This document shows positions 2 through 12,928 of a DNA stretch of 12,962 nucleotides, piece by piece. Numbering within the stretch: the stretch's first letter is position 1; every line of letters begins with the position of its first letter. A model generated the notes under the pieces. That model worked only from the letters and a program-made list of their open reading frames with translations, was not told where the DNA came from and did no database searches. Source of the stretch: an archaeon (GTDB taxonomy: Archaea; Thermoproteota; Nitrososphaeria; Nitrososphaerales; CADDZS01); the NCBI GenBank assembly GCA_021806865.1, contig JAKAPU010000047.1, positions 2,396-15,357 of the forward strand, read 5' to 3'. The translations under genes and the position numbers were made by a program.

Positions 2-742
2 ATGGCAATTGGAATCTCAAGATTGCCGTTCAAGTGTCCTGCGGCTCCTTACGAAGTAGCGCTACTGCTGGATGATTACTACGGCAAGAAGGGATTGAGA
101 AACAAGATAAAGTTCGAGCTCTTCACTCCAGAAGGTATCCCGGTTCCTGCGGTCGGTCCTGACATTGGCAACAAGGTACTAGAGCTAATGAAGTCCAGAG
201 GAATGAACTACCATCCAAAGGTGAGAGTCAAGGAAATCCGATCAGGCGAGATCAGATTTGAGGGCGGAGGTGAGCCGATAGCGTACGATTTGCTTTTTTG
301 TGTCCCTCCACACGTCGCGCCTCAACCAGTGAGAGAGGCAGGACTCACCGACGAAACAGGTTGGATTCCAGTAAATTCCAACATGCTCGAAACAAATCAC
401 AGTGGAATCTATGCAGTCGGAGATGTTACATCCATAAAAACTCCTAATGGATACGTACCGTTCCTGCCCAAAGCAGGCGTTTTCGCTCATGGTCAGGCGG
501 AAGTCGTGGGAAACAATCTTGTGGTACAAATTTTGGAACGATCAGGCAGGTTGAACAAGAGCAAGAAAGAGTGGGATGGTCACGGCTCTTGCTTTCTTGA
601 AGTGGGGAATGGACAGAGCGCGTTCGTGAAAGGAGCTTTTCTTGAGCAGCATAAGCCAATGATTGAGTTCCACATGCCTGGAAAGGTTTGGCACATGCAA
701 AAGGTTGCGTTTGAAAAGTACTGGATGCATCACTGGTTCTGA
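2..742 (+). CDS. Sulfide:quinone oxidoreductase-like FAD flavoprotein (5' end outside window)
   Basis: This is the C-terminal 246 residues of an SQR/flavocytochrome c sulfide dehydrogenase-like member of the two-dinucleotide-binding flavoprotein family. Such enzymes oxidise sulfide or polysulfide at the membrane face and pass electrons to quinone. Visible hallmarks (numbered from the first ATG in the window) are the KCPAAPYE segment with Cys12, the place of a redox Cys in SQRs; the FAD-contacting TxHSGIYAVGDVTSI stretch (residues 131-145); PKAGVFAHGQAE (156-167), where the isoalloxazine and quinone pocket usually lies; and a GHGSCFLEVGNG block (193-204) near the end. The frame is open to the window edge and the N-terminal Rossmann fold is missing, so the ATG at base 2 is internal. 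It heads a plus-strand run with DsrEFH-like and LbpA-TusA-like genes, which supports a sulfur role. It could instead be a related enzyme with another acceptor. The family is confident; the substrate is inferred. Confidence 0.85.
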   Translation: MAIGISRLPFKCPAAPYEVALLLDDYYGKKGLRNKIKFELFTPEGIPVPAVGPDIGNKVLELMKSRGMNYHPKVRVKEIRSGEIRFEGGGEPIAYDLLFCVPPHVAPQPVREAGLTDETGWIPVNSNMLETNHSGIYAVGDVTSIKTPNGYVPFLPKAGVFAHGQAEVVGNNLVVQILERSGRLNKSKKEWDGHGSCFLEVGNGQSAFVKGAFLEQHKPMIEFHMPGKVWHMQKVAFEKYWMHHWF

Positions 743-825: not shown

Positions 826-1152
826 GTGAAAGGAAGGTATCTGAACGCACAAAACGAATGGGAGATCGCCTGGAACGAGGCGCTGGACAGAATCGATCAG
901 CACAAGAAAGAAGGAAGCTCGCAATTGGTTATAGACCCGTACAAAGAAGCTTGGAATGCGTCTGATGTCAAGAGGATCGAAGAAGGCGTGCTGCGTCATG
1001 AATGGAACTATGAACTCTGCCGGAAATACACTTCGCTCGAGCTTGAAAATCAGAAAAGATTGAGGGATTGGGGCAGGAAGTACATGCCCGAGGAGCAGAG
1101 CGACCTTGAAAAGCGTCAACGCGAGAGGATCAAACACCTGAAGACAGAATGA
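826..1152 (+). CDS. Small charged hypothetical protein in the sulfur operon
   Basis: I do not recognise this 108-residue protein. It starts with GTG, with a GGTGG purine motif about 10 bases upstream. It is strongly charged and tryptophan-rich for its size, looks largely alpha-helical, and has no signal peptide or membrane segment. It contains a single Cys (in ELCRK, near residue 65) and a Lys/Arg/Glu-rich C-terminal third that may form a coiled coil. It lies 83 bases after the flavoprotein gene and 47 bases before dsrE, all on one strand, so co-transcription is likely. Position suggests an accessory or scaffold role in sulfur transfer, but this is guilt by association only. Confidence 0.7.
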   Translation: MKGRYLNAQNEWEIAWNEALDRIDQHKKEGSSQLVIDPYKEAWNASDVKRIEEGVLRHEWNYELCRKYTSLELENQKRLRDWGRKYMPEEQSDLEKRQRERIKHLKTE

Positions 1153-1199: not shown

Positions 1200-1570
1200 A
1201 TGGAAGAATCGAAGACGCAGAGGAAACACCTGGGCATCCTGCTTTTCACAACGCCGTACAGTTCCGAAAACACCGACACCGCAGTTAAGCTAGCGCAGGC
1301 TGCTCTAAATCAAGGACACAGTGTCACCGTCTTTGCGTACGGCGACAGCGTTCACAGTTTCACAAAGGGACAAAGAGCCACAGGAATACCTAATGCAGAA
1401 AAGGAGTTTCAAGTTCTGCTTGATAGAGGGCTGAAAGTGGAGCTCTGCGGAACCTGCCTTAACTTCAGGGGGATAGGAAACGAACTCATCATCAAGGGTG
1501 CAGAACCTACAGCATGCGAAACCTCTGCAAGCTGATAGACGATTGTGACAGATTTGTCACGTTCATGTGA
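1200..1570 (+). CDS. dsrE: DsrE-like sulfurtransferase subunit, apparent one-base frameshift near its 3' end
   Basis: DsrE/TusD-family proteins bind sulfane sulfur on a conserved Cys and pass it to carriers such as TusA. The main frame (1200-1535) gives a beta-alpha start (HLGILLFTTPYSSENT), a helix with AVKLAQAALNQGH, and the conserved ELCGTCLNFRGIG motif with Cys83 and Cys86, so the likely sulfur-carrying residue is present. After IIKG (about residue 100) this frame ends in an unrelated tail. Another frame continues from 1496 as GCRTYSMRNLCKLIDDCDR and so on to a stop at 1568-1570, which looks like a proper DsrE C-terminus. One extra G in the GGG at 1496-1498 would join them into a protein of about 123 residues, normal for the family. 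The cause is either a real mutation or a sequence error. An AAAGGAG motif lies about 15 bases before the ATG, rather far. DsrF- and DsrH-like genes follow directly. Confidence 0.8.
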
Positions 1571-1598: not shown

Positions 1599-1961
1599 AT
1601 GAAATCTCTTTCAATCATCATAACCAAACCGCCATTTGGGATGATCCATGCCGCAGAAGCTGTAAGGTTAGCGAACGGAGCGGTAGCATACGGTCACGAT
1701 GTTTCACTGATTCTAGTGGATGATGGTATCCTGGTAGCAAAAAAGGAGCAGAGAGCAGAGAATGGTGGCTGGACCTCTCTTTCTCCTTTGATAGAGAAAT
1801 TAGCAGCATCGTCGTCCAAGAAATCCAAAGTGCTTGCCGATGTTCAAAACGCAAGGAGAATAGGCCTACATCAAATTGATCTCGTGGAGGGAGTGAAGCT
1901 GGTTGATAGCGGGATTATCGCATCGACCATAAGTGCGAGCGACAGGACGGCAATATTCTAG
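1599..1961 (+). CDS. dsrF: DsrF-like (DsrE/DsrF superfamily) subunit lacking cysteine
   Basis: This 120-residue DsrE/F-superfamily protein is the second of a trio matching the DsrE-DsrF-DsrH complex, in which these subunits assemble together. It opens with the family's first beta strand and loop (MKSLSIIITKPPFGMIHAAEAVRLANGA) and a GHDVSLILVDDGI second strand. It ends with a GLHQIDLVEGV block and a DRTAIF C-terminal strand. It has no Cys at all, so it cannot carry sulfur itself and is probably structural, as DsrF is in known complexes. A longer reading from GTG 1545 is possible, but ATG 1599 gives the proper family N-terminus and avoids overlap with the repaired dsrE frame. Assignment to DsrF rather than another DsrE paralogue rests on gene order. 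Confidence 0.72.
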   Translation: MKSLSIIITKPPFGMIHAAEAVRLANGAVAYGHDVSLILVDDGILVAKKEQRAENGGWTSLSPLIEKLAASSSKKSKVLADVQNARRIGLHQIDLVEGVKLVDSGIIASTISASDRTAIF

Positions 1962-1984
1962 TTAACAAAGTGAACAAGGAAAGA

Positions 1985-2311
1985 ATGAAAGAAGTAATTC
2001 TGTTTACCTCCCCCAGAAGCTCCGCGAATAACGCAGCGGGTCTCAAGCTCCTTCAAGAATTGTCCAAGAAACATAAAGGCGGAAATGATGACGTAATCGT
2101 TGTACTTATGCAAGATGCTGTCCTTCTGGCTCTGAAGGACTTTTCGCAATCTGACTTTTCGGAGACCTCTGAAGGATACGTGTTAGACGAGCACCTAGCA
2201 AAGAGAGGCTTCACGCCTCAATCTTTGAAATCACCTTTCAAACCTGCGAGTTACGATGAGATCGTTGGGCTAATAATGAAAGACGGAACGCATGTAGTGG
2301 GCTCGTTCTGA
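1985..2311 (+). CDS. dsrH: DsrH/TusB-like subunit lacking cysteine
   Basis: This protein of about 108 residues has the DsrH/TusB layout: a first strand MKEVILFTSPRSS, a VIVVLMQDAV strand, and the typical ending in which a YVLDEHLAKRG segment is followed by SYDEIVGLIMKDGTHVVGSF. In known DsrEFH/TusBCD complexes DsrH is the third subunit. No Cys is present, so the sulfur-relay Cys of canonical DsrH is missing and only DsrE in this trio could carry persulfide. I chose ATG 1985 because it places the first strand at the N-terminus; GTG 1970 in the same frame would add five residues. It lies 23 bases after the DsrF-like gene and 39 bases before the lipoyl-TusA fusion, consistent with one operon. 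Confidence 0.68.
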   Translation: MKEVILFTSPRSSANNAAGLKLLQELSKKHKGGNDDVIVVLMQDAVLLALKDFSQSDFSETSEGYVLDEHLAKRGFTPQSLKSPFKPASYDEIVGLIMKDGTHVVGSF

Positions 2312-2350: not shown

Positions 2351-3040
2351 ATGAAGGTGATTTGCAAGATCATGATAATTGAAAATTGTTCATTCCCAGA
2401 TAACTTGAGCTACGATATTGAGGAAAATGTCTGGGTTCGGAGGGAGAACGATTTACTAACAATCGGCATCATCTGCGTGTCCGCATTTAGCGCAGGAAGG
2501 ATCAATACCGTCAAGTTCAAACCCATAGGAACTTTGTTGGAGAGAGGAAAGAGCGTTGCAACAATCGAAAGCGCGAAGTTCTTTGGAGCAGTCCGTACGC
2601 CCATCAGCGGGAAACTTGTTGAAACAAACCAACAACTTCTGGAGGAGCCCGATCTAGCAAACAAGTATTCATATTCAAATGGGTGGTTTGCAAAGATAAA
2701 ACCAACGAGCAATGAAGAAGAATATTCCAGAGAGTTTGAGCTACTAGTCGCCCCCAAATTTGCAGAAACCAAGCTGCGGAGCTTGATTGAGCAGCTACAC
2801 ATCAGATGCTTTTCGGTTTATCCGGACTACGAAATCTCTGGAATCGGCGGAGAATGTCCAGAGACGTTGAACCAGTTAGATCAACTGATGCAGGGTATTC
2901 AAAAGGACGAGAGCGTTCATCTTGTGACGGATAATCCTCTTGCAGACAAAGACGTGCCTCAGTGGGTCTCGATACGAGGTCATAAGATTTTGGAGACGAG
3001 AAGAGAAGGCACGTTGTTCCATTTCATAATAGGTAGGTAA
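2351..3040 (+). CDS. Fusion of a GcvH/LbpA-like lipoyl domain and a TusA-like sulfur carrier domain
   Basis: The 229-residue protein has two recognisable domains. Residues about 11-118 follow the GcvH/LbpA pattern: LSYDIEENVWVR, an LLTIGI strand, then VATIESAKFFGAVRTPISG with Lys76 in the ESxK lipoylation context, and a YSYSNGWFAKIKP ending like the PYxxGW of glycine cleavage H proteins. Residues about 138-229 follow the TusA pattern: ISGIGGECPETL with the sulfur-carrying Cys169-Pro170, DESVHLVTDNPLADKDVPQW, then GHKILETRREGTLFHFIIGR. LbpA-type lipoate proteins serve the sHdr sulfur-oxidation pathway and TusA donates sulfane sulfur. Here both sit on one chain, in an operon with DsrEFH-like genes and an SQR-like gene. 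No glycine cleavage T or P gene is nearby, which argues against a GcvH role. Lipoylation and sulfur exchange between the domains are inferred. Confidence 0.85.
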   Translation: MKVICKIMIIENCSFPDNLSYDIEENVWVRRENDLLTIGIICVSAFSAGRINTVKFKPIGTLLERGKSVATIESAKFFGAVRTPISGKLVETNQQLLEEPDLANKYSYSNGWFAKIKPTSNEEEYSREFELLVAPKFAETKLRSLIEQLHIRCFSVYPDYEISGIGGECPETLNQLDQLMQGIQKDESVHLVTDNPLADKDVPQWVSIRGHKILETRREGTLFHFIIGR

Positions 3041-5457: not shown

Positions 5458-6105
5458 TCAATATCGATCTGAAAGATCGTATCCCCGAGTTTTGAATCTT
5501 TTCAAAGTCTTCAAACGACGTTGGGTATTCGCGTTCAGCTTCTCAGCTCTCATTACAGTGCCGAATGTTCCATCTTCTAGGAAGACGAGCATCCGAAGAT
5601 ACTTATAGGGATCTTTAGCTTCTAGAGCTTCTCGATCGATGGAAGCTGCGACTATGCGCCCGAGTATGATGATTTCGCTTCCGTATGAGAAGTGTTTGTC
5701 AAGAACACATTCCAGATGAGCCCCGCACTCTTCTATCCTTGGCGGCTTGACTTTTAGAGAAGGAATCGGCGTGAGCTTCAACGATTCGACTGGTCTCGGA
5801 TGATCCAAATACCCTGCTTCCCAGATGGTATCTACGAGCTCCGCTCCAGGTATGTTTATCACAAACTCTCTTGATCTTAGAATATTCTTGGCTGTCCAGT
5901 GCTTTGTGCTGCAGCCGAGAGCGATGATCGAGGGACCGAATGCCATGTACGATATCCAGTTCTTGGGCGCAACGTTCGAAACCCCGTCTTCATTCAACGT
6001 GGTAACCAGAACCAATTGACCGAGTATAGGCGAGGGGTGCCACTTTCGCTTATCGGGTGCAAAGGCTACCTTGTCCTTCAGGTTTGGTCCCTTCTTCCTA
6101 GCCAC
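5458..6105 (-). CDS. Flavin reductase-like FMN-binding split-barrel protein
   Basis: The 215-residue protein follows the flavin reductase-like (FMN-binding split barrel) pattern: SPILGQLVLVTTLNEDGVSNVAPKNWISYMAFGPSIIALGC (about 25-65), then KHWTAKNILRSREFVINIPGAELV, and EIIILGRIVAASID later in the barrel. Members bind FMN and either reduce it with NAD(P)H or act on unknown substrates. No partner oxygenase is nearby, so the substrate cannot be named. A short basic C-terminal tail (RRLKTLKRFKTRGYD) extends past the core. The start is GTG 6105; an in-frame stop lies about 20 bases further upstream, so no longer form exists. A possible TATA-like ATTTATC lies about 50 bases upstream. The gene is cytosolic with no signal peptide. 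Family is confident, function unknown. Confidence 0.85.
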   Translation of the reverse strand: MARKKGPNLKDKVAFAPDKRKWHPSPILGQLVLVTTLNEDGVSNVAPKNWISYMAFGPSIIALGCSTKHWTAKNILRSREFVINIPGAELVDTIWEAGYLDHPRPVESLKLTPIPSLKVKPPRIEECGAHLECVLDKHFSYGSEIIILGRIVAASIDREALEAKDPYKYLRMLVFLEDGTFGTVMRAEKLNANTQRRLKTLKRFKTRGYDLSDRY

Positions 6106-6212
6106 TGGCGCGTAAGCGAGTCTTCATTTGCTTCTGGCATATCCTTTCAGATGATGATAAATGCTTTCTTTGATGGCTGTGACGATCATGGCAGGATCTG
6201 GAGTCGCGAAGC

Positions 6213-6234
6213 GAGGGGCGCGGAACGGCCCCTC
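6213..6234. repeat. GC-rich stem-loop between methyltransferase and flavin reductase genes
   Basis: GAGGGGC at 6213-6219 pairs perfectly with GCCCCTC at 6228-6234 around an eight-base loop. It lies about 38 bases after the stop codon of the minus-strand methyltransferase gene. There is no T-run beyond it on the minus strand, so it is not a classical terminator. It could be a 3' RNA stabiliser or part of the leader region ahead of the flavin reductase gene. Confidence 0.6.
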
Positions 6235-6271
6235 ACAATACTACTAGGGCAACAACTCAACTATCCGTAAG

Positions 6272-6868
6272 TCAATAAGACGACAACCGCGAGTAGACGA
6301 ACAAATTCTTTCCAACAACCGCGGCAGGGCGAAGTCCGGGAATCCTATGGGAGTACGAGATAATCAGGCATCCAGGCTTGAGCGCTCTCATTCTGTCTCT
6401 AAACTCCTGTCTCTTCAATATCAAAGGAGACAAAAACAGGTACAAAACATCTGCGTCAGAGAAATAGAGTCTGAGCAGATCGCCTTTGACGAGCATTACG
6501 CGAGCGCCGTATCCAAGCTTCCGAATCCGTCGTCTTGCTATCGCATACTTCAACCAATCAGCTTCTATTCCAGTGCAGATTGCGTTGGGAAGTTTTTCTG
6601 CAATATCCATCAGGACACCGCCGAATCCAGAACCCAGATCGTAGAAAACGAATCTTTCTCCTGATTGAAATCTCTGCTCAAGTAGCCCAATCAATTGCTT
6701 GCGAACGAACCCGTTGGTCGGCTCGTATCCCGCGCCCCACACCCATCCAAGAGCAAAGAAAAGGAGCAGAAAGATCGCGATAATGAGCAAGAGGATTCCA
6801 AATGCAGTTGAGGAATGGGAAAAGAAAAAGAGTAGGAGGGATGGAAGAGAAGGAATTTCAGATCCCAT
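6272..6868 (-). CDS. Membrane-anchored SAM-dependent methyltransferase (FAM173-like)
   Basis: The 198-residue protein has an N-terminal hydrophobic helix (about 22-46, FGILLLIIAIFLLLFFALGWVW) followed by a class I methyltransferase domain. Motif I is FYDLGSGFGG (75-84), the acidic ribose-binding end of strand 2 is GIEAD (100-104), and VKGDLL (128-132) is the motif after strand 4 that contacts the adenine. The YEPTNGFVRKQLIGLL segment before motif I, the DADVLYLFLSP strand and the LKPGCLIISY strand resemble the FAM173 group. Its eukaryotic members are membrane-anchored lysine methyltransferases acting on ATP synthase and ADP/ATP carrier proteins. A protein lysine target is therefore plausible but not shown. 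ATG 6868 lies 26 bases after the pilin stop codon on the same strand, so the two are probably co-transcribed and the pilin or its assembly machinery is a candidate substrate. Confidence 0.75.
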   Translation of the reverse strand: MGSEIPSLPSLLLFFFSHSSTAFGILLLIIAIFLLLFFALGWVWGAGYEPTNGFVRKQLIGLLEQRFQSGERFVFYDLGSGFGGVLMDIAEKLPNAICTGIEADWLKYAIARRRIRKLGYGARVMLVKGDLLRLYFSDADVLYLFLSPLILKRQEFRDRMRALKPGCLIISYSHRIPGLRPAAVVGKNLFVYSRLSSY

Positions 6869-6894: not shown

Positions 6895-7371
6895 CTATTG
6901 GACCGTGATTGTTTCGGTTATGGTGTAGGTTGCTCCATTAGATCCGGTCACGAGGACCGTTATCACATGGGACTCGCCTATCGACCACCCCCCTTCCGAG
7001 AATGTTGCGGATGCTGAAGCTCCTGCTGCGAGCGGCGAACTGGAGCCGATGCTCGGTGACCAGGTAGGTTGCGTTGCAAGTACCTTGCCATCGACAGATA
7101 CGCTTGCGGCCGTAATTGCAACTGATCCGCTGTTCTTGATCGTGAGTGAGACCACTGCGCCTCCTGCAGAAGTAGCGTAGTTTGCCTGAGCGTTTGTCAT
7201 GTACGCAACGAGGTTCGAGGACGCCGAACCTGCGTATCCTGTGTAGACGATGTACACCCCTGCCGCCGCGATGACTCCGATCCCGATGAGTATCAGGGTC
7301 GTGATGACGTTTGAGATCGCTACTTTCTTCGTTGTCTTTCTATGCTCTAAGAGAGATTGTTTGTTAAGCAT
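6895..7371 (-). CDS. Archaeal type IV pilin-like protein
   Basis: The 158-residue protein has a class III signal peptide: a basic leader with EHRKTTKKVA followed by the hydrophobic helix ISNVITTLILIGIGVIAAAGVYIVYTG (about 19-45). PibD/ArlK-type peptidase would cut near Ala18, and the helix would pack into the pilus core. The C-terminal part is a Ser/Ala/Gly-rich beta domain with VVSLTIKNSGSVAITAASVSVDG and ends in TITETITVQ. It is a clear paralogue of the frameshifted pilin at 11481-11935. I chose ATG 7371 rather than an in-frame ATG at 7407, because the extra 12 codons contain the GTTTTAAG TATA-like box and 7371 lies 22 bases after it, as expected for a leaderless gene. A membrane methyltransferase gene follows. 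Confidence 0.85.
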   Translation of the reverse strand: MLNKQSLLEHRKTTKKVAISNVITTLILIGIGVIAAAGVYIVYTGYAGSASSNLVAYMTNAQANYATSAGGAVVSLTIKNSGSVAITAASVSVDGKVLATQPTWSPSIGSSSPLAAGASASATFSEGGWSIGESHVITVLVTGSNGATYTITETITVQ

Positions 7372-7392
7372 GTCCGTAAGAAAATTGCTTTG

Positions 7393-7400
7393 CTTAAAAC
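7393..7400 (-). promoter_or_regulatory. TATA-like box for the first pilin gene
   Basis: The minus-strand reading is GTTTTAAG, 22 bases before ATG 7371, with TGTTTTAAGC context shared with the regulator promoter at 11321-11328. The spacing fits a leaderless transcript. Confidence 0.6.
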
Positions 7401-7480
7401 ACGCCAAAATGAAAGGCCAGTACCTGAGTTTGGATTGGTGGTGAGGAAAGGGGAAAGAAAGATTCCCTCGCGCGCGTGAT

Positions 7481-7510
7481 CTTTATCAAGCCGTGCACCT
7501 ATATTATATT
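7481..7510 (+). promoter_or_regulatory. AT-rich promoter region for abiEi
   Basis: Two TATA-like stretches are visible, CTTTATCA at 7481-7488 and TATATTATAT at 7500-7509, upstream of the ATG at 7523. The first has better spacing for a short leader; the second would place initiation at about the ATG or just after it. The region is divergent from the pilin promoter. Confidence 0.4.
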
Positions 7511-7522
7511 CACGATAACCGT

Positions 7523-8344
7523 ATGCTGACACTGACATCGTTGAAGAAATATAGGCACTCCCTGTCTGACAGGGAATCCAAAATCCTGTCGAACCTGAGC
7601 TACAGCGGCAAGTCAGTGTTCACTCTTGAAGATATCAAGAGATTAGTCAAGGATCCCAAGAATGTCTTGGACAGCTTAAGACGCAAGAAATGGATACTGA
7701 AGATAAAGAGAGGCGTTTACGCGATTGCCCCACTCGAAGCTGGAGAGAAGGGATCCGAGTCTTACGCACTTCACAGCTTCACAATTGCATCGTTCTTGGT
7801 AGAACCCTATTACATCGGATACTGGAGTGCTCTAAACTACCACGGCCTTACTGATCAGACGCCACCGGCCGTTTACGTAGTTACCACAAAACCGAGAAAT
7901 TCCAGAAGAGTACTCAATACTCAATTCAAGTTTGTGACAATACCGAAGAGGAAATTGTTTGCTGTAGAAAAAGTTGAGATAGAGAAAAGGAAAATCAACA
8001 TATCGTCGCGGGAAAAAACAATCGCAGATTGCTTGGATCACCCTGAGCACGCTGGTGGGGTGGAAGAGGTAGCGAAAGCAATCTACTTTGCAAGCAGGAA
8101 CGCGGAACTTGATTTCAACCGTCTGGTCGATTATTCGCGAAAGCTGGGTAACAGCGCAGTTCTCAAGAGACTGGGTTTCATAGCAGAGGCGCTGAGCATC
8201 AAAGAGCTATCCAGTTTGCTTTCCGGTGCCAAGCTTGCAAGCGGCTATTCGGTACTCGATCCACTGCTACCGAAAAAGGGGAAGATCAGGGAACGCTGGA
8301 AGATACTCGTGAACACTTCAATAGATCCGGAAAGGTGGGGCTGA
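7523..8344 (+). CDS. abiEi: AbiEi-family antitoxin (AbiE toxin-antitoxin system)
   Basis: The 273-residue protein matches AbiEi antitoxins, which repress their own operon through an N-terminal winged helix and block the AbiEii nucleotidyltransferase. The N-terminus (about 10-65) shows LSDRESKILSNLSYSGKSVFTLEDIKRLV and an LRRKKWILKIKRGVYAI winged-helix ending. The middle carries YYIGYWSALNYHGLTDQTPPAVYVVTT, the characteristic AbiEi signature, followed by REKTIADCLDHPEHAGG. A longer start at GTG 7493 would run across the promoter AT-rich region, so ATG 7523 is preferred. The toxin gene starts one base after the stop codon, the normal tight pairing. Here the toxin is broken by an insertion, so the antitoxin is an orphan that may still act as a repressor or protect against related toxins. 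Confidence 0.85.
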   Translation: MLTLTSLKKYRHSLSDRESKILSNLSYSGKSVFTLEDIKRLVKDPKNVLDSLRRKKWILKIKRGVYAIAPLEAGEKGSESYALHSFTIASFLVEPYYIGYWSALNYHGLTDQTPPAVYVVTTKPRNSRRVLNTQFKFVTIPKRKLFAVEKVEIEKRKINISSREKTIADCLDHPEHAGGVEEVAKAIYFASRNAELDFNRLVDYSRKLGNSAVLKRLGFIAEALSIKELSSLLSGAKLASGYSVLDPLLPKKGKIRERWKILVNTSIDPERWG

Positions 8345-8578: not shown

Positions 8579-9820
8579 TCATCGCCATTCATTGTAGTTC
8601 CACCTCAGGAGCAAGGGCTCTGTCATGAGCCTGCTACCGCTGGCCCCTTCCAATGTGCTTAGGACTGAGAGGGGCCTCTTCACGGCTACCTTCATAATAT
8701 TCACGGCTCCGTTTACGTCTGCGTTGACTGATTGATGCGCTTCCCTACAGACCATCAAACCGCGGTTGATTCTGCCGTTGTGCATCTTGTTGCATAAACA
8801 GCACGTCTTGGACGTGTCTCGCTCAGAGACTTTTGTGACAGTGATTCCATACTCCTCACCCAATTCGTAGATTCGACCTGCAATCATGTTGAATACCCAA
8901 AAGTTGTGTAATTTCTGGTTCACTTTATCTCCATAGTTTGCCTCATCCCGTATGTGCATGAGATCTCCGATGAACAATTCACTAACGCCTTTTGATTTCA
9001 GAATCTCGAATATTGACCGTAGCATCGAGTTGATCGCGTGTCTCAGTCTTCGCTGCCTACTTCTGAAAGCGGTTGAGATTTCTTTTGATGTATATCTTCT
9101 CTTAGCAAGTTTGCCTTGTTTCTCCGCTATCTTTTTTGTTTTGTAGATCCAATCGCTTAGGACTGCTCGACCAGAGTAGACTATCGGTCTCTCGCCTTGA
9201 ATGTAGAGAGCTGTTAGGTTGCAGATGCCAATATCCAAAGAAGCCTTTTTCTGGCTTGTTCGACACAGAGGTTGTTGAACCTCGACCGGAATATAGGCAT
9301 ACCACTTGCTGCTGCCATTGTCTTTTAGGACTTCTAGCCTTCCTTGTTTGCCTACCCAGAGCTGACCGCAGTTGTATGGTATTTTGAGATTCTTTGAAAG
9401 TGAGATGGTCGTATCATTCAGACTCCATCCATCGTTTCTGACGTAAAAACAACGAACCACTCGCTTCCCGTTTTCCTTCCAGTAGTTAGGCGGAGAGACT
9501 TTCTTGACGTGCAAAGGCAGCTGACCCTTCTTCTTGAGCCTCATCAAAGCCCAGAAGCTTCGCCAACATTCATCAAGTTTTGATAAGAGTGCTTGAGCCT
9601 TGCACGTACCGAGAATTTTGAACGCATCGGTCGCTTTGAGGGATTTGCATTGTGCCGAGTATGCTTGGATTTTGGTATGTTCGAAGAATGCCTTGCGCCG
9701 TTCGTAGTTGGCCGTATTCCAGAGGATGCTTGATGCGCCCGCAAGCTCCTGAAGTTGTGTTTCATCCCCGACAGTAGGATTGAGGAGTATCGTCGATGTC
9801 CTAAGCACACTCAAATGCAT
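8579..9820 (-). CDS. tnpB: TnpB RNA-guided nuclease of an IS200/IS605-family element
   Basis: TnpB proteins are RuvC nucleases guided by an RNA from the element's right end. This 413-residue protein has RuvC motif I as SLDIGICN (Asp196) and an arginine-rich bridge-like helix near 254-266 (FRSRQRRLRHAIN). Motif II is read as ELFIGDLMHIR (281-291), where Gly285-Asp286 replaces the common Glu-Asp. Motif III is NADVNGAVNI (Asp368). The zinc finger has TSKTCCLC (Cys340, Cys343), but its second half is CREAHQSV, with Cys358 and His362 instead of Cys-x2-Cys. Length and domain order are normal and the frame is intact. The N-terminus MHLSVLRTSTILLNP starts at ATG 9820. Cleavage activity is uncertain because of motif II. 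No tnpA lies in the element. Confidence 0.9.
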   Translation of the reverse strand: MHLSVLRTSTILLNPTVGDETQLQELAGASSILWNTANYERRKAFFEHTKIQAYSAQCKSLKATDAFKILGTCKAQALLSKLDECWRSFWALMRLKKKGQLPLHVKKVSPPNYWKENGKRVVRCFYVRNDGWSLNDTTISLSKNLKIPYNCGQLWVGKQGRLEVLKDNGSSKWYAYIPVEVQQPLCRTSQKKASLDIGICNLTALYIQGERPIVYSGRAVLSDWIYKTKKIAEKQGKLAKRRYTSKEISTAFRSRQRRLRHAINSMLRSIFEILKSKGVSELFIGDLMHIRDEANYGDKVNQKLHNFWVFNMIAGRIYELGEEYGITVTKVSERDTSKTCCLCNKMHNGRINRGLMVCREAHQSVNADVNGAVNIMKVAVKRPLSVLSTLEGASGSRLMTEPLLLRWNYNEWR

Positions 9821-11480: not shown

Positions 11481-11935
11481 TCAAAACACGGTAACGTCCT
11501 GCGTTGCGGTATAATCACCACTCGAGGACGAAGCTGAAGTGATGGTGATAACATGGGTCGTACCCTGAACCCATCTCGCTCCTGACATGAGTACGAATGT
11601 GGTCGCGCTGCCTCCCCATTGGACGGGCCACGTCGGAGGAGACGGCTGCCAAGTTGCGTTCACGGAGTTCCGTCGACGGAAAGTGAAATCGAAGAAATTG
11701 AAATTGTACCTGCATTCTTCACAGTGACAGAGAGCACTGTCTCATCAGTGGCAGGGATGTAGGTTGCCTGCGCCCCTGTGATGTAGATGACCGTGCTCGA
11801 AAGAGCTGTTCCGCTTGTACTCACGAATATCATGTAAATTCCAGCAGCAGCGACGACAGCAATCCCGATGAGTATGATCGTCGTGAGTACCTCTGCGACC
11901 GCCGCTCTTCGTCCCTCATTCATCTTCATCCACAC
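11481..11935 (-). CDS. Second archaeal type IV pilin-like protein, apparent one-base frameshift
   Basis: The first part (11660-11935) encodes a class III signal peptide and pilin helix, MNEGRRAAVAEVLTTIILIG then IAVVAAAGIYMIF, followed by VLSVTVKNAGTISISSISLSVDG. Here the frame stops right after GTP. The other frame (to 11481) continues VNATWQPSPPTWPVQWGG and ends HVITITSASSSSGDYTATQDVTVF. Aligned by eye with the intact pilin at 6895-7371, the two pieces join exactly at SVDG, so one base is missing in the CC before GTGAAC (near 11662-11665). Repaired, the product is about 151 residues. The GTG start at 11935 follows the platform gene's stop directly; ATG 11929 or 11923 are alternatives. It is the probable filament subunit for the adjacent TadC-like protein. 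Confidence 0.8.
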
Positions 11936-12928
11936 TCAGGGAACATCTGCTGTACCAAAGTTGATGCCGCCAACAATGGACGGGACCAGGTAGAATGCTA
12001 CTATTATCAGAATGCATGCGATGGCAATTCTGGTCGTGTTGTGTATGGTGAGATCGATGGACTTCATTAGGGCAAACACTATGCTGATCGTTGCGCTAGC
12101 AGCAAGCGCTTGAATCAGAATTGGGTTGATTGGGGAGGCAGTAAGAATGGGAAGGTGAGCCATGCCCGAGAAGGGTACTGTCATCTTGTCTATGATGGAA
12201 GTCATCAGGAAAACCACGAACGGCGTGGAATAAGCGAGCAGGAGAAAGATCTTGACAGAAGACATTGCCTCCTTCTTCGATCTCGTTATCTCTGAAACAA
12301 AGCGCCTTAGTTTGTCTATCTGGCTGGGAGTTCCGCCTCCGCTCTCCGATAGCTTTGCGATCATGAAGAAAACGTATCTGACGAGCCAGCTTGGCGTCCT
12401 GACCTCGAGCTCGCCGAACCTTCTGTTCATGGAGAACTGCGCCCTAATGTGACGCATGAGTGATAGGAGAGCTCCAGTATACCTCCTTTGAGCTTCGTCC
12501 ATCACGAGCCTTCGCATCGCCCCGTTGAGATCAAAGCCAAGCTTCCTCAATTCGGCAATGTCTCCCAGCAGAGTTGTCATTCCCTTCTCGAGCTCTCTTA
12601 TCTCGCGTATCACGATTTGCGACTTGATACCGTACCCAAAGGTTATGCCCCCGAATATCAAGACAAACATCGGAACCACTCCGAGTCGGGCAAGAGCACC
12701 TGCCACGGCTGAGCCGGCTCCTCCGATCATTGCTAGCCTTAAATCACCGGATATGTTGTCTCTGAAACCTCCGGGCTGGGTTTGCCTTGAAACCGCGTAC
12801 AGCGCAAATGCAAGAAGAGGGGAGAGCAGTATTCCAATCAACATCAATGTGGATCCAAATCCTCCAGGCGAGATAACGGCCATCACAGCAGCGAGGGCTG
12901 GAAAGAGCATGAGAAGCATAGTGATCAC
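11936..12928 (-). CDS. TadC/ArlJ-like type II secretion F-domain platform protein
   Basis: The 330-residue polytopic membrane protein has hydrophobic segments near 1-17, 24-48 and 70-100. A cytoplasmic T2SSF-type helical region follows (about 105-220: REIRELEKGMTTLLGDIAEL, KLGFDLNGAMRRLV, KLRRFVSEITRSKKEAM), and then further helices to the end (LLLAYSTPFVVFLMTSII, ALAASATISIVFALM, IACILIIVAFYLVPSIVGG). Such proteins form the inner-membrane platform of archaeal type IV pili and work with a secretion ATPase. GTG 12928 is the only upstream start before an in-frame TAG, and its GTGA overlaps the TGA of the preceding gene. The pilin gene starts on the base after its stop, so the three are translationally linked. 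The ATPase gene is not in the window and may lie upstream. Confidence 0.82.
   Translation of the reverse strand: MITMLLMLFPALAAVMAVISPGGFGSTLMLIGILLSPLLAFALYAVSRQTQPGGFRDNISGDLRLAMIGGAGSAVAGALARLGVVPMFVLIFGGITFGYGIKSQIVIREIRELEKGMTTLLGDIAELRKLGFDLNGAMRRLVMDEAQRRYTGALLSLMRHIRAQFSMNRRFGELEVRTPSWLVRYVFFMIAKLSESGGGTPSQIDKLRRFVSEITRSKKEAMSSVKIFLLLAYSTPFVVFLMTSIIDKMTVPFSGMAHLPILTASPINPILIQALAASATISIVFALMKSIDLTIHNTTRIAIACILIIVAFYLVPSIVGGINFGTADVP

Follow-up and report, generated by a model that had tools for sequence, protein, structure and literature searches.

An archaeal LbpA–TusA fusion with conserved cysteines and a variable lipoyl position

The fusion gene and its neighbourhood in the window

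The stretch of archaeal DNA analysed here (12,962 nucleotides, hereafter the window) carries a run of genes on the + strand in which a partial SQR/FCSD-like flavoprotein gene, a gene for a 108-aa protein and genes for DsrE-, DsrF- and DsrH-type proteins are followed, in last place, by a gene that joins a lipoyl-type domain to a TusA domain in a single chain:

2..742, + strand: SQR/FCSD-like flavoprotein, C-terminal part, cut by the window edge (score under the NCBIfam cut-off)
826..1152, + strand: small protein of 108 aa, without a Pfam family match, in the same gene run
1200..1535, + strand: DsrE/TusD-like sulfurtransferase with cysteines 83, 86 (CGTC) and 106 (Pfam DsrE over cut-off)
1599..1961, + strand: DsrF/TusC-like protein, without cysteine from the ATG at 1599; frame open from 1545 (Pfam DsrE)
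1970..2311, + strand: DsrH/TusB-like protein, without cysteine (Pfam DsrH over cut-off)
2351..3040, + strand: LbpA–TusA fusion gene, 229 aa as listed; probable true start at ATG 2372, giving 222 aa
2387..2389, + strand: codon of Cys13, the invariant N-terminal cysteine of the fusion (alignment)
2411..2722, + strand: GcvH/LbpA-type domain, fusion residues 21–124 (Pfam GCV_H 1e-26; predicted structure)
2576..2578, + strand: codon of Lys76, the lipoyl-attachment position (alignment)
2807..2809, + strand: codon of Cys153, 16 residues ahead of Cys169 (alignment)
2849..3031, + strand: TusA domain, fusion residues 167–227 (Pfam TusA 5.2e-9; predicted structure)
2855..2857, + strand: codon of Cys169, the TusA sulfur-carrying cysteine (alignment)

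The initial annotation had proposed such a fusion with both key residues kept, and this is borne out: both domains exceed their Pfam cut-offs, both folds (GcvH/LbpA and TusA) are visible in a confident predicted structure, relatives are fused in the same way, and Lys76 and Cys169 are both present. The C-terminal half, on which the proposal could have failed, passes the TusA profile PF01206 with 36.3 bits against a curated cut-off of 28.6. GCV_H is the top-scoring Pfam domain of the protein, which nevertheless reaches neither the NCBIfam gcvH equivalog cut-off (60.5 vs. 115.85 bits) nor that of TusA (27.2 vs. 78 bits). The usual carrier-cysteine motif of TusA is CPxP; the window protein reads CPET at this point, and a proline directly after the TusA cysteine is missing in 70 of the 90 fusions compared below. 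With E. coli TusA (PF01206; 3lvj/3lvk) it shares the fold, the sulfur-carrying cysteine and, in the case of the window, DsrE/F/H-type neighbours, but it differs in being fused and in an extra conserved cysteine 16 residues upstream of the carrier position.

Pfam matches to DsrE, DsrE and DsrH stand consecutively ahead of the fusion, all over cut-off and all three below the Tus/Dsr equivalog cut-offs, and among these three DsrE-fold subunits only DsrE has cysteines. The gene order, in the window and in locus L001, and the confinement of cysteines to DsrE in the window recall the DsrE/DsrF/DsrH proteins that work with TusA in sulfur oxidizers, and TusBCD; unlike in those systems, the TusA partner here bears an LbpA fold, and a Pfam scan of 17 window proteins found no DsrC. 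L001 belongs to the closest relative with a genome compared (G001), whose fusion is 56% identical to that of the window (protein P0003, from a metagenome contig, is closer at 87%). Its order of SQR-like, DsrE, DsrF, DsrH and fusion genes matches the window, with a longer SQR-like counterpart, and the 108-aa protein has no counterpart in L001–L035. A link to sulfur trafficking, as anticipated, is thus supported by the SQR-like and DsrE/F/H genes directly upstream of the fusion. In the first genome set (the 33 genomes behind L001–L034, L014 left out) a DsrH match occurs in only two, marking the SQR/DsrEFH neighbourhood as a local one. The second of these genomes is G024 (locus L107), whose fusion, L025, adjoins a rhodanese gene. 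The window shows no rhodanese; there and at L001 the SQR-like and DsrE/F/H genes take its place.

Elsewhere in the window, an AbiEi-type antitoxin gene (7493–8344, + strand; PF09407 9e-10, PF13338 1.2e-6) is followed just downstream by a gene for a TnpB-type protein (8579–9820, - strand; OrfB_IS605 8.3e-19, Cas12f1-like TNB 1.5e-12), which, judged by eye, appears to split the gene that would pair with AbiEi. The frames at 6895–7407, 11660–11935 and 11936–12928 (-) hold two proteins that by eye resemble archaeal pilins, neither matched by Pfam; next to the second lies a T2SSF match too weak for the cut-off (0.0027).

Fused relatives and their neighbourhoods across archaea

Database searches returned 38 proteins matching the fusion, 32 of them over both halves, including P0002, which is the window itself. 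Both Pfam labels are present in 30 of the other 31, and the remaining one, P0029, lacks the TusA label yet aligns throughout. A scan with one peptide pattern around Cys169, over one genome per species (84,980 species), yielded 35 loci, all with archaeal titles (Nitrososphaera, Nitrosocaldus, Nitrosocosmicus, Nitrososphaeraceae, bins assigned to Thaumarchaeota and Euryarchaeota, Thermoplasmata, Marsarchaeota, Thermoprotei and others), and the same fusion is encoded in one frame at 33 of them, the exceptions being broken (L014) or partial (L035). Scanning 398 genomes of the phylum with a profile added more fusions, including a distant set; in the family of Nitrososphaera sp. AFS (G004), 41 of 70 genomes match at E <= 1e-30, one of these (G479) over the first half only. 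The fear that an assembly join had created the fusion can therefore be set aside: the same in-frame architecture in 31 other database proteins and at 33 of 35 loci rules it out, dozens of archaeal relatives being fused alike.

At L014 (about 5804–6511) the fusion gene is split into two frames, and G465, apparently the same record by its coordinates, has one internal stop. P0042, a short relative of 126 aa made up of TusA and only the tail of GCV_H, looks truncated.

The initial annotation also held the architecture to be undescribed. We found neither a published description of an LbpA–TusA fusion nor an experiment on such a protein in open-licence literature, an absence that is no proof, and to that extent the claim stands; any suggestion of rarity does not, as the fusion is common in some archaea, with the 41 of 70 genomes in one family as the clearest case. 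Annotation pipelines recognise both halves, as names such as that of P0021 indicate ('glycine cleavage system H lipoate-binding protein/TusA-related sulfurtransferase'). In a quick tree, calculated without bootstraps and flagged for joined long branches, a branch (support 89, not starred) sets all 90 fusions apart, which makes a single origin of the fusion likely.

A rhodanese gene is the wider neighbourhood rule for the fusion family. Of the 55 loci compared (L001–L035 and L086–L105; the metagenome contigs of P0003–P0006 and P0008–P0012 are not included), 41 also hold a two-domain rhodanese gene, within 300 bases of the fusion in 29 and further away, up to 4.4 kb, in 12. Its orientation varies, upstream on the same strand in some lineages and convergent in others, and the 14 loci where none was found include several with short flanks. 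All 17 neighbouring rhodaneses examined carry a CRIGER loop, which we take to be of the thiosulfate-sulfurtransferase type, and the two tested against NCBIfam matched 3-mercaptopyruvate sulfurtransferase best, below cut-off.

Conserved cysteines, the lipoyl position and lipoate genes

Conservation was counted over 90 fusions, made up of 33 pattern-scan loci, 25 profile-scan loci and 32 proteins from the database or the window. Rows dropped beforehand were P0002 (the window itself), L014 (broken frame) and L035 (partial), together with L036, L037, L039, L040 and L046, which duplicated other rows. P0040 (Lys at position 76) and P0041 (Thr) stand outside all counts, and the counts at position 76 leave out L105 as well as the further fusions of the AFS family. 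Cys13 is present in all 87 rows with a residue at that position, Cys153 in 89 of 90 and Cys169 in 90 of 90, amounting to 0, 1 and 0 changes on the tree, and Cys153 and Cys169 are spaced by 16 residues in 89 of 89 cases.

Stand-alone LbpA/GcvH-type proteins provide a comparison. Among 24 such proteins (20 loci chosen among the matches listed, same profile), 15 have an N-terminal cysteine aligned with Cys13, and the same 15 end in a CKR motif that falls near the Cys153 position, while the other nine have neither feature. LbpA proteins of the sHdr system, in the excerpted text of Cao et al. 2018 (PMC6067878), carry two conserved cysteines alongside the lipoyl lysine; the pair is missing in GcvH, the lysine is strictly conserved in 95 LbpA proteins, and lysine and cysteines occur together, with some archaeal exceptions for the cysteines. 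This cysteine evidence suggests that the first half of the fusion is LbpA-like, not GcvH-like, with TusA attached behind it. Like LbpA, the fusion has the GcvH fold, sulfur-linked genes nearby and a conserved cysteine towards each end of that fold, the N-terminal one being Cys13 and the C-terminal one Cys153; LbpA differs in being a separate protein within Hdr-like gene clusters, whereas here the domain is fused to TusA and no such cluster appears among the window proteins scanned. Three GcvH-like proteins of 150–154 aa (P0034–P0036; P0035 is named from Amycolatopsis) have a lipoyl lysine, an N-terminal cysteine and a CxRC end, and are apparently LbpA-like.

Were the protein simply a TusA, with the LbpA fold as a relic or solubility domain and the other two cysteines structural, an invariant Cys169 and a frequently lost lipoyl site would both be in keeping. 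We regard this as distinctly unlikely, however, as six residues of the LbpA half (Cys13, Tyr21, Gly39, Gly49, Asn93 and Trp112) change 0 times on the tree, which is hardly expected of a relic, and the TusA half is itself atypical in the motif described above.

Position 76 behaves differently from the cysteines. It is Lys in 39 of the 90 fusions, Arg in 40 and another residue in 11, so that the lipoyl lysine is replaced in 51; an earlier alignment of 67 rows gave K 31, R 28, T 3, S 2, I 1, L 1 and one gap, with Lys in all six GcvH-like proteins of that alignment as well. At least 19 changes between Lys and non-Lys are needed on the tree, and the column undergoes 25 residue changes, where the median of the 214 columns is 21 and 128 of them change less. 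Replacement occurs between close relatives, the five K/R pairs compared being 71–77% identical (in the Nitrosocaldus group, for example, L007 has Arg and L010 Lys). The 24 stand-alone proteins all keep Lys (Fisher p 6e-8 against 39 of 90, uncorrected for kinship); the lysine that is strictly conserved in LbpA is variable in the fusion family, though it is present in the window. Misalignment is an unlikely cause of the lost lysine, since the alignment is gap-free around the ES-x-K motif in the printed stretches. A shift of the lipoyl site to a nearby lysine was rejected, with only five of the 51 non-Lys rows having Lys within residues 72–82. Position 76 is not free of all constraint, being K or R in 79 of 90 rows, and the window's own subclade has Lys76 in 7 of 7 rows compared. 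The Nitrosocosmicus group (L045, L047, L048 and L033) has Ile, Val or Asn here, with loss of the positive charge too.

The genomes were scanned for lipoate ligase, LipA, E2, GcvP and GCV_H. The ligase search also bears on the LipS1/S2 route, which begins with a ligase according to excerpted text of PMC10332631. In the first set, the same 15 of 33 genomes keep the fusion, as their only GCV_H, without LplA, LipA, E2 or GcvP over cut-off, and all 15 belong to Nitrososphaera/Nitrososphaeraceae, Nitrosocaldus or Nitrosocosmicus lineages (by title, family list or tree position); their fusions have Lys in five and another residue in ten. Ligase matches below cut-off occur in G006 and G020, and LipA matches below cut-off in G005 and G032. 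Gene absence in single genomes means little (completeness values are not given), but agreement over five families is telling, and excerpted text of Borziak et al. 2014 (PMC3904984) reports the lipoylation pathway as absent from five Thaumarchaeota species surveyed. A further 19 genomes that carry the fusion formed a second set: LipA exceeds its cut-off in G427, a member of the G004 family, and G443 shows weak pieces, which means that the lineage as a whole does not lack lipoate genes. Over 58 genomes, Lys76 occurs in 16 of 30 with a lipoate ligase vs. 7 of 28 without (Fisher p 0.035), an association that comes down to four independent pairs and a sign test that is not significant; that Lys76 tracks lipoate genes is thus no more than a possibility. 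Lipoylation of the window's protein is possible, judging from Lys76 throughout its subclade and from LipA and ligase in G001. In that genome LipA, ligase and E2 all lie on contig C64, so that E2 may be what LipA and ligase serve; GcvP lies on C71 and the fusion, its only GCV_H, on C70.

These gene contents also bear on whether the fusion is a glycine-cleavage H-protein that has acquired a TusA domain, with no main role for sulfur. The top-scoring GCV_H domain and the company of GcvP in G001, where no other GCV_H was found, point that way, yet the fusion falls far short of the GcvH equivalog cut-off, its cysteines are conserved and its lysine is not, and GcvP matches occur in 16 of the 33 fusion-bearing genomes, G001 included, and not in the other 17. 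In G033, which has GcvP, the fusion is the sole GCV_H and carries Leu in place of Lys76, a combination for which a GcvH missing from the MAG is a likely cause. With sulfur genes adjoining the fusion in the window and rhodanese genes in many relatives, we consider an H-protein function very improbable.

The initial annotation related the fusion to the sHdr pathway, where LbpA, TusA and DsrE-type proteins come from one locus as separate products. The Pfam scan of 17 window proteins turned up no sHdr genes. In a scan for CCG domains over ten genomes, G001 has one two-CCG protein only, G008 has three and G014 one, while G004, G007 and G012, all of the Nitrososphaera/Nitrosocaldus lineage, have none; three comparison genomes have 10–11 matches each. 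The exception is G002, with eight CCG matches spread over four proteins, one of which has two CCG domains and, at 296 aa, the size of HdrB, and so an Hdr-type enzyme is possible in some fusion-bearing members; the fusion of G002 is itself Thr-type at position 76.

Weighed together, these results speak to the mechanism first suggested for the fusion, in which Lys76 is lipoylated and the Cys169 persulfide passes its sulfur to the dihydrolipoyl arm of the same chain, feeding an sHdr-like oxidation. In favour of this reading are Lys76 in the window and its subclade, LipA, ligase and E2 in G001, the SQR-like and DsrE/F/H genes adjoining the fusion, the greater frequency of Lys in ligase genomes, the HdrB-size protein of G002 and the membership of LbpA in sHdr systems (excerpted text of PMC6067878). 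For the family it is not supported. Of the 90 fusions, 51 have another residue in place of the lysine, and in the first set 15 of 15 genomes of the lineages named above retain the fusion although lipoate genes over cut-off were not found in them. No sHdr genes were seen next to the window's fusion, G001 has a single two-CCG protein, and its LipA, ligase and E2 genes sit on a different contig from its fusion; the p value of 0.035 fails once independent pairs are counted. We therefore consider transfer to a lipoyl arm unlikely, though possible in the window's own subclade.

A candidate cysteine relay

The suggested mechanism should instead be reversed, as what the family conserves is its thiols and not the lipoyl site. 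In our judgement the LbpA–TusA fusion is probably a sulfane-sulfur relay that works through cysteines, with lipoate not needed for its common function. This reading starts from what was observed, namely the fusion, its conservation pattern, its gene neighbourhood and a part of the family in which lipoate genes were not found; what we infer is how sulfur moves at every step, in which direction, in what order the cysteines take part and which acceptor receives it last. Cys169 of the TusA domain would be loaded by a sulfur donor, probably the neighbouring two-domain rhodanese in most relatives, where it is the likely partner, and probably sulfur from the SQR-like flavoprotein, handed on via DsrE, in the window. 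The persulfide would then be passed to, or resolved with, Cys153 in the stretch leading into TusA and Cys13, where the LbpA fold begins; the fold itself would serve as a scaffold for docking and presentation. Lipoate on Lys76 may be an added feature in lineages that have both the lysine and lipoate synthesis, such as that of the window. DsrE is the likely partner there because it alone among the three subunits has cysteines and because TusA and the DsrE cysteine of DsrEFH exchange sulfur in both directions in cable bacteria, as described in excerpted text of PMC13293266.

The cysteine relay is favoured by the contrast between cysteines that change 0, 1 and 0 times and a column 76 that changes 25 times, and by the 15 genomes that keep the fusion without lipoate genes over cut-off. 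It is weakened by the retention of Lys76 in the window's subclade together with LipA and ligase in G001, by the commoner Lys76 in genomes with a ligase, by the predominance of K or R at the position, by LipA in G427, by the HdrB-size protein of G002, and by the lack of a rhodanese in the window and in 14 of 55 loci. The fuller proposal, that in archaeal lineages without lipoate genes over cut-off a lipoate-free route runs from rhodanese to LbpA–TusA with all three cysteines active, and that the cysteine pair of LbpA, not its lipoyl arm, is the ancient core of its sulfur chemistry, is more tentative, and we would put it at slightly less than an even chance.

What is new here is the joining of two known kinds of protein, LbpA and TusA, with a testable consequence for the function of LbpA. 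To our knowledge, how the lipoate-binding proteins of the sHdr pathway handle sulfur is unsettled; by separating features that go together in LbpA, so that the cysteines stay while the lipoyl lysine often goes, the fusion family makes the role of each directly testable. Nitrososphaera- and Nitrosocaldus-type lineages are known for ammonia oxidation, and we know of no fusion-bearing archaea recognised as sulfur oxidizers. The fusion family points to a rhodanese-coupled sulfur carrier in archaea outside the known sulfur oxidizers, and the lipoate-free relay, if true, would be an undescribed route for sulfane sulfur on a lipoate-carrier fold.
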